Origin: Halococcus sediminicola
Lineage (GTDB): Archaea; Halobacteriota; Halobacteria; Halobacteriales; Halococcaceae
Length of the DNA: 64,000 nucleotides
NCBI RefSeq assembly: GCF_000755245.1
Contig: NZ_BBMP01000001.1
Coordinates: 1 to 64,000, forward strand
Direction: 5' to 3'
The notes under the pieces were generated by a model that did not search any database, had not been told where the DNA came from, and was given only the letters and a program-made list of their open reading frames with translations. The translations under genes were made by a program, and so were the position numbers. This document shows, piece after piece, positions 7,456 through 46,449 of the stretch. Position 1 is the stretch's first letter, and each line of letters opens with the position of its first letter.

Positions 7456-7809
7456 CGACGAATAATCGAACTAAGAATAGCATATTCCGGGATATTTCTT
7501 GAAACTGGGACATAGCGTCCTGCGGCACTGTCTAGTTGAGCGGGTTGAGGAATGAGCAGGTCGTAGCGAGCACTGACCATGAAACTCGGAGACCTGCTCA
7601 GAGAGACGTTGAGCGTGGATTGTGATGAGGTTTGGGACAACGAGCGCACCCCGACACCCGTCAGGGTGTTCGGGGTGCGTCTCCATTCGATGGGGCTGTC
7701 GCTGCGGGAGGTCGTCGCAGTGTTCGACTGGCTTGGCATCGACCGTTCGCACGGAGCGGTCTGGAACTGGACGCACACGCTTTCAGAAACACAGGCTGAC
7801 CCGCCGACG

Positions 7810-7865
7810 TTCACGAGAGCGAAGCTCTCGTGCAGCACATCAGAACGCCTCGCGTTCTGAGGACG
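7810..7865. repeat. 56-bp double-hairpin insertion element, copy 1
   Basis: The insert consists of a first stem CACGAGAGC-GAA-GCTCTCGTG (9 bp) and a second stem CAGAACGC-CTC-GCGTTCTG (8 bp), separated by CAGCACAT-type spacer sequence and ending in AGGACG. It sits between codons for DPPT and AEPS of the IS6 transposase, after ..GACG and before GCG. No convincing target duplication longer than CG is seen. Compare copy 2 at 8010. Confidence 0.9.
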
Positions 7866-8009
7866 GCGGAGCCGTCGCGGGTCGCCGTCGATGAGAAACA
7901 GATCACTGTCGACGGCGAGAAGAGATGGCTCTACGCCGCAATAGACACAGATTCGAAGCTGTTGCTCGATATCGAAGTGTTCAGCCGACGCGGGACCGAT
8001 CCCGCGTCG

Positions 8010-8065
8010 TTCACGAGAGCAAAGCTCTCGTGCAGCACATCAGAAATCGAAGATTTCTGAGGACG
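8010..8065. repeat. 56-bp double-hairpin insertion element, copy 2
   Basis: Same length and layout as copy 1, exactly 200 bases downstream. The first stem is conserved with loop AAA instead of GAA. The second stem is CAGAAATC-GAA-GATTTCTG: three base pairs differ from copy 1 on both sides, so pairing is kept by compensating changes. It lies after ..GTCG and before GCG in the transposase gene, between codons for DPAS and AFLH. Confidence 0.9.
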
Positions 8066-8387
8066 GCGTTCCTTCACCGTCTTACCACCAAGCACGACGT
8101 CTCAGATACCGAATTCCTCGTTGACGCCGGCGGGTATCTGACCGCTCTCGCTCGGCGTGAATTGAGCGGTCACCTCGACTATAACGAGCGCAACCTCGTC
8201 GAGAAGCTGTTCCAGACCGTGGCGATGCGAATCGACCGCTTCCATTCGTTCTGGCGGGGGAGTCCAGCCAGCGCTCGGCGCTGGCTGCGACGGTTCAAGC
8301 ATCACTACAACCACGACCGACCGAATCAGGCGCTCGATGGACGAACGCCCGTCGAGGAGGTTCTCAACTAGACAGTGCCAGGACTAC

Positions 8388-45510: not shown

Positions 45511-46449
45511 GACCTGCTCGCGTATGTCCGCCATCGATACGCCAGCTCGGTCGGCCAGCGCCAGTGCGCCGCCCATCCCGACGCCCTCCTTGGCCTCACC
45601 GGCGACGTACGGGTTCATTGCTGAATGGTTGCGACGGTGGAAGTCCGGGTCGGTGACGGTCACGTCCAACGAGAGGTCATTCGCCAGTTCGTTCAGCCGT
45701 ACCGTCTTGTCGTCGGCGATAAAAGAGGTCGTCGTGACCGAGAGCGTCGCGTCCACGCCTGCGTGTCGAGCGAGGGCGGCAGCGGCGATGAGCTGTGTCC
45801 CTCCGGCGAGTGTCACTGACGTATCGGTGGTCGTCGCTCCGACGGTCAATCCGGCCACAGCAGCGAGCACTGGGTCGCCGACGTGGCGTACCGTTTTCAC
45901 CGGCTCGTCCGCGGTCTCGCCCGCCGAGAGACTACTCGCTGCCAACGCCTCGTCCACCACTGCTTGCTTGAGCGCGAACGGGTTCTCGGGGAGCGAGGGC
46001 GACACTGCGGCGCATTCGCCGAGCGCAGTGGTCGTGCCGCCGGGAATTGTCTCGCCGATCACGAGTTCGTCGTCCGGCAGGCTCCGTCCGAGCTGACGGG
46101 CAGCCTCGAACGTGTCCATTGCGGAATCGACGGGCCGAGGATGGCGGATATCTCTTCCAGGCATCGCTTCGAGGGCGACAGTCGGTGCACTGGTTGGACG
46201 AACGAGACCCGTATCGAGAGCCAGGGTATCGAACTCGATCAGTTCGCGGACGGCGCGTGTAATGACCGCAGGTGTCGGGCAGCCAGTCGGACTCATCGGT
46301 ATGACTGGTGCCTGGACTGGCTGCCCATATTCCACGATCTCGAGGTCCGCGCTCGGAGTGTGGGCCATCAGATCGGGGTCCGCTCTGGCGGCACTGATCC
46401 CCTCGATGTGTGCGGTTTCAGTGGTGCCGGCGACCAAGACGAACCTCAT
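45510..46449 (-). pseudogene. cobT: Second cobT copy, truncated at the C-terminus by an IS fragment
   Basis: Paralogue of the cobT at 4974-5981, beginning [17 protein letters not shown]. It keeps [28 protein letters not shown] and [20 protein letters not shown]. Compared with the intact copy it lacks six residues after GGTTTALG, apparently lost between two ALGE repeats. After DIREQVV at about 45510 the frame enters the transposase fragment, replacing the last ten to fifteen residues. It might fold, but the internal deletion and new tail suggest a relic. Its upstream region holds a 110-bp repeat shared with the integrase. Confidence 0.8.

Follow-up and report, generated by a model that had tools for sequence, protein, structure and literature searches.

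Elements of the IS200/IS605 group are moved by TnpA, an HUH enzyme of the Y1 type, and follow a common pattern, exemplified by IS608 and ISDra2, in which the target resembles the right end of the element, the hairpins are strand specific and no target duplication is formed. Smaller palindromic elements have been described in haloarchaea and in bacteria. The palindrome-associated transposable elements (PATEs) of Haloquadratum include 52-bp terminal-only forms, presented as fused ends resulting from a deletion between two copies of one palindrome (PMC3119063). The same work describes the Haloquadratum repeat SMR-A, which is ~110 bp long, has prominent terminal inverted repeats and is given no explanation for its mobilization (PMC3119063). 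The CGTC-tagged REPs, which include some Rickettsia RPEs and Neisseria dRS3 and are reported from bacteria only, are single palindromes of 20–40 bp, often in high copy number, with stems of 8–9 bp that start with AT after the tag, loops of 4–5 nt and a CCA-like tail (PMC3733652). The units described below are, with a probability of roughly 0.58, copies of a nonautonomous mobile element of ~56 bp that occurs across the Halobacteria and is moved in trans by an HUH-like enzyme.

The window, that is the whole stretch of 64,000 nucleotides from Halococcus sediminicola that was analyzed, contains an 856-bp insertion sequence (IS) of the IS6 type, bounded by terminal inverted repeats that are complementary at 17 of 17 positions (7524–7540 on the forward strand and 8363–8379 on the reverse strand, the latter overlapping the end of the transposase gene). 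The outer flanks of this IS, GTCCT and AGGAC, form an inverted extension of the terminal repeat, and no obvious target duplication was seen around it (7517–8384). Its transposase contains two 56-bp double-hairpin units, at 7810–7865 and 8010–8065; these, their parts and the transposase segments lie on the forward strand. When the three flanking segments are joined (7579–7809, from the ATG to the first insertion site; 7866–8009; and 8066–8371, up to the stop codon), a single open frame of exactly 681 bp is obtained, encoding 226 amino acids plus a stop, as the original prediction had stated, and the joined protein matches the Pfam domain DDE_Tnp_IS240 (E-value 2.6e-8). We infer that one IS6-type transposase was broken by two separate events.

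The two units have the same length and the same two-hairpin layout, again as predicted: TT, a 9-bp stem with a 3-nt loop, the linker CAGCACAT, an 8-bp stem with a 3-nt loop, and AGGACG. Unit 1 follows the tetranucleotide GACG (7806–7809; family consensus GRCG) and consists of hairpin 1, CACGAGAGC-GAA-GCTCTCGTG (7812–7832), the linker (7833–7840; mostly CAGCMCAT in the family alignment), hairpin 2, CAGAACGC-CTC-GCGTTCTG (7841–7859), and the right end (7860–7865), within which GACG resembles the target motif. Unit 2 follows GTCG (8006–8009) and has CACGAGAGC-AAA-GCTCTCGTG as hairpin 1 (8012–8032), CAGAAATC-GAA-GATTTCTG as hairpin 2 (8041–8059) and the same right end AGGACG (8060–8065). Both score 83.2 bits with the covariance model, and they are 83% identical across a 71-base repeat that includes their flanks. 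Hairpin 2 had been said to differ between the copies by three compensated base pairs; both sides did change together, at two pairs rather than three (C-G to A-T and G-C to T-A, CAGAACGC versus CAGAAATC). Folded as single strands, the units give z-scores of −5.3 and −6.9, and none of 200 shuffles folds as well. The unit ends, TTCAC and GGACG, are symmetric over ~3 bp at most, so that terminal inverted repeats are absent; hairpin 1 begins 2 nt (usually TT) from the left end, its stem starts with CAG after this spacer, the two hairpins are mutually unrelated, and there is no CCA tail. No function of the units themselves is apparent.

They belong to a family with definite boundaries, covarying stems and a defined target motif. 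We searched for its members with a 19-base core, CTCGTGCAGCACATCAGAA, allowing at most two mismatches and using the reversed pattern as a control. The core matches twice in the window, where 0.01 matches are expected, and is present in 114 of 391 genomes of the class Halobacteria, representing 45 of 86 genera, the reversed control finding next to nothing. A covariance-model count of 365/391 genomes was not taken as a prevalence, because scores of about 24 bits are also given by the model to the opposite strand of true units; the pattern count (114/391) can be relied on instead. The pattern scan of genome contigs mixed in many chance bacterial matches, and only matches with the right end were retained. 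Four clear copies were identified in the genome of H. sediminicola itself, namely the window pair, a third at position 116351 of contig C23 and a decayed fourth at position 77373 of contig C1. Annotated plasmid records with copies include those of Salinigranum, Natrinema, Natronorubrum, Haloterrigena and Haloferax mediterranei (pHME132, 46049–46104). No match to the unit was found in Rfam or in phage records, no exact match to the pattern in IMG/VR viral contigs, and no unit in the Haloquadratum plasmid PL47.

When 60 distinct units were aligned without gaps, 98.7% of the cells proved to be paired and 8 of the 17 pairs have changed on both sides, giving a covariation score of 0.250 against 0.096 in shuffles; none of 500 shuffles reaches this value, and the signal collapses when the partners are slid. 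Since the core and the right end served as anchors for the searches, part of their conservation is a product of the search design, which does not apply to the covarying inner stem positions. Hairpin 1 can be almost fully replaced and still be paired (CGATAGAGC/GCTCTATCG in locus L183, CGAAAATC... in L203 and L216). Both stems covary, which bears out the earlier proposal that structure is kept rather than sequence.

Several related forms were also observed. Longer forms with four hairpins (L180, L186, L036, and L090) have their outer hairpins in common with the units and a conserved inner pair, TTGGA..TCCAA-TGGTC-GGCGAATC..GATTCGCC; they could be a parent form of the units or relatives of the ~110-bp SMRs. 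A variant family (L158, L177, and L253) has AGCCAAC, AGCCAAT or AGCCGAC as linker and GTGACG or ATGACG as right end, and lies after flanks that end in CG. Genome G020 has two loci (L162 and L196) at which the linker of a 56-bp-type unit contains a nested second palindromic unit (TATGGAAGACGC..ATTCTGGGGACA).

After removal of redundancy, 27 insertion sites are clearly distinct, or 42 when the sister families are included. Across the 27, the left flank has C in 27, G in 26 and a purine (R) in 24, and GRCG occurs at 17 of the 26 CG sites, compared with 16% of background CG sites within those loci (P = 3e-8). The right end of the unit contains invariant GA.C, followed by G in 26 of 27, so that GACG ends 26 of the 27 units. 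The sites had been described as G(A/T)CG followed by GCG, which is true of the gene in the window; family-wide, conservation is limited to the left motif and does not extend to the right-hand GCG. The absence of a clear duplication, also part of the original prediction, holds for the 27 sites and for the empty sites: at many unrelated positions a GRCG-like motif directly precedes the unit, without duplication beyond an ambiguous CG. At 13 sites, position −3 of the left flank is G while the right end keeps A, which excludes a target duplication of 3 bp or more. At CG-flanked units a 2-bp duplication of CG is formally possible, as it would be indistinguishable from no duplication.

Other copies and empty sites could be tabulated in haloarchaeal genomes. 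Empty copies were identified for all three IS6 sites (1, 2 and 3) as well as for the IS605 left end and tnpB; some site-1 matches proved to be filled copies matched through their right end and were excluded. Matching empty sites have a single CG; empty sites show that insertion is exact and rule out a target duplication of more than 2 bp. Three insertion sites recur in IS6 transposases; some of these genes have a unit at site 1 alone, some at site 2 alone and some at both. Among 18 examples of site 1, flank identity falls to 55% while the units average 86% identity. Because the units are more alike than their flanks, and because sites 1 and 2 are filled separately, repeated insertions at one site appear to be independent. 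Among the open reading frames next to the representative sites are IS6-type transposase genes and tnpB; several sites lie between genes. Past mobility of the units is very likely. The most pronounced hot spots, namely sites 1 and 3 of the IS6 transposases and the L025 site, are located in stem-loops. A general targeting of palindromes was considered and rejected, the enclosure score over the 42 sites being no higher than at other CG positions (P = 0.62). Units also recur at an intergenic motif resembling CCTTTTTCATnnACG joined to TTTTTGCG in otherwise different loci (L311–L313, L315, L183, and L051), which is possibly a terminator-like hot spot.

Because the target motif resembles the unit's own end, cut-and-paste of single-stranded DNA is suggested, and an HUH single-strand mechanism is plausible, at somewhat better than even odds. 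The candidate would be a trans-acting enzyme, most probably a Y1/HUH transposase like IS200/IS605 TnpA or a RAYT, that recognizes the folded top strand and cuts after the flanking GRCG and after the unit's own GACG; the element would be excised as single-stranded DNA with a GGACG-TTCAC joint, and this strand would be inserted after another GRCG. The likeness to IS200/IS605 elements lies in insertion 3′ of a tetranucleotide resembling the right end (GRCG versus GACG), in the subterminal hairpins and in the lack of duplication. Unlike these elements, the units have no transposase gene, and their dissimilar hairpins differ from typical IS605 ends. Guide sequences, which lie 5′ of each hairpin and pair with the cleavage sites, were not seen on inspection: only two bases precede hairpin 1, and the usual place of the left guide is missing because this hairpin starts 2 nt after the cleavage point. 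Y1 transposase matches were found in 22 of 30 unit-bearing genomes, including four matches in the host genome, and none was detectable in the other 8. A Y1 transposase with matching subterminal hairpins, to which the original prediction pointed, was not found: none of 30 tnpA loci belongs to an autonomous element with the ends of the unit, and the tnpA-tnpB elements found in these genomes end differently. The direction of the proposed HUH/IS200-like mobilization is supported by the target motif and by the lack of a duplication of 3 bp or more; the absence of room for a left guide, the unrelated hairpins, the parent not found among the 30 tnpA loci and the 8 genomes in which no Y1 gene was detected count against it.

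Some units sit within the left-end palindrome of tnpA-tnpB elements. The local tnpA-tnpB element was rejected as a parent, as it has ends of its own (TTAGCTGAATTGAGGCGC and GTAGTTCAC) and the nearby units have inserted into its left end. A sister family (TTGACGAGACGC..GCGTCTCGTTCGCACACCAGAA..TTCTGGGGACG; L024, L027, L044, L201, L211, and L238) also occupies the left-end palindrome in haloarchaeal tnpA-tnpB elements, and 56-bp-type units often insert into the end of this family, between GGATACAGCG and TCCCC.

With PATEs, as these are described, the units share a haloarchaeal host range, palindromes near the ends, the lack of terminal inverted repeats and of a target duplication of at least 3 bp (the CG doublet being ambiguous), a short 5′ target motif and, at 56 bp, a length too short to code for a transposase. 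They differ in fitting two unrelated hairpins into 56 bp and in the position of the first hairpin, just 2 nt from the left end. The kinship of PATEs with IS605 ends has no counterpart among the 30 tnpA loci compared, and we therefore call the unit PATE-like rather than filing it as a PATE. The suggestion of a haloarchaeal REP/PATE-like family was sound as to the family and fair as an analogy, while membership of either group is not established. Overall, a widespread PATE-like nonautonomous element whose mobility is well supported best accounts for the data.

In the IS6 transposases that they interrupt, the unit length is a multiple of 3 bp in 0 of 37 cases and most of the genes carry further frame lesions once the units are set aside, the frame being exactly restored in the window transposase and a few others. 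Two insertion sites within tnpB account for 14 units, every one of them 57 or 60 bp long and so in frame (L044, 6835–6891; L067; L098; L106; L167; L216; L203; L341–L349; and L356, 1501–1557). In L356, a plasmid of Salinigranum marinum, the 57-bp unit lies within an annotated transposase gene of 1302 bp, an intact tnpB that adjoins tnpA. The 4 units at a third site in tnpB each have a length of 56 bp and disrupt the frame. The simplest reading is that the open tnpB frame is under selection at the first two sites. The mid-site copies in tnpB have one loop sequence in common and look like a single inherited insertion, so the 14 in-frame units do not represent 14 independent events.

These in-frame copies bear on a different and rather unlikely interpretation, in which the units are archaeal counterparts of dimers of CGTC-tagged REPs (REPIN-like), propagated by a RAYT or by some other enzyme, lost or unknown. 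The unpaired CGTC tag of the palindromes would then correspond to CGTT at the left, if the flanking CG is counted, and to GACG, the complement of CGTC, at the right. The units share with CGTC-REPs such an unpaired end tag, a palindromic stem, the lack of a known transposase, and intragenic and in-frame copies, and some unit-bearing genomes lack a Y1 gene. CGTC-REPs also occur without a dedicated transposase and can lie within genes, and the tnpB copies recall the in-frame Rickettsia RPEs, some of which are counted as CGTC-REPs (PMC3733652). However, the stem that starts with CAG after a 2-nt spacer, the 3-nt loop and the missing CCA tail depart from the definition of these repeats, the copy number per genome is low (four clear copies in the host), and the left CG belongs to the target, as it is already present in empty sites. 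More speculatively, and doubtful in our estimate, the units may belong to an archaeal superfamily of double-hairpin elements with the CGTC tag, present throughout the class, that move as folded single-stranded DNA through a non-Y1 enzyme and are retained in TnpB proteins as in-frame peptide inserts, much like the RPEs of Rickettsia.

It is likewise improbable that the units are MITEs or short mobile repeats moved by a DDE or site-specific enzyme, with either a duplicated 2-bp CG or CG as a recombination core. Enzymes of the IS110 type do use a core dinucleotide, CG is found at both ends of the units, and a CG duplication looks the same as none. SMR-A likewise lacks a target duplication and favors near-terminal palindromes of IS605-type or PATE elements (PMC3119063), and units occupy the left-end palindrome of tnpA-tnpB elements; the units are set apart from SMR-A by their 56 bp and the lack of such inverted repeats, some longer four-hairpin forms notwithstanding. 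Against movement by a DDE or site-specific enzyme are the terminal inverted repeat of about 3 bp or less, the extension of the target to GRCG, and the covariation of the hairpins as folded strands.

That the units are not independently mobile, being an old inherited sequence spread with transposase genes and IS ends, is very unlikely. Several genomes have many copies in one repeated context (for example, 7 similar copies in G052 and 3 in G387), which may have been carried along with a host element and which we count against mobility, and the shared loop of the tnpB mid-site copies points the same way; the 27 distinct sites with exact boundaries, the empty sites and units more alike than their flanks argue otherwise. 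Removal of the inserts from RNA, or their bypass by the ribosome, in a transposase that still works can be dismissed despite the exact frame restoration in the window and a few other genes, because most insert-bearing IS6 transposases are damaged further, and units are also intergenic and in IS ends.

If the units are indeed a nonautonomous element moved in trans by an HUH-like enzyme, they would constitute a mobile element of very small size whose boundaries and target motif are exactly known. Since both empty and filled sites are resolved to the single base, they would offer a testable substrate for how palindromic repeats move without a transposase of their own, a question that also concerns CGTC-REPs, PATEs and SMRs. 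Related copies reside in named, culturable archaea such as Haloferax mediterranei, and the question would therefore be open to experiment.
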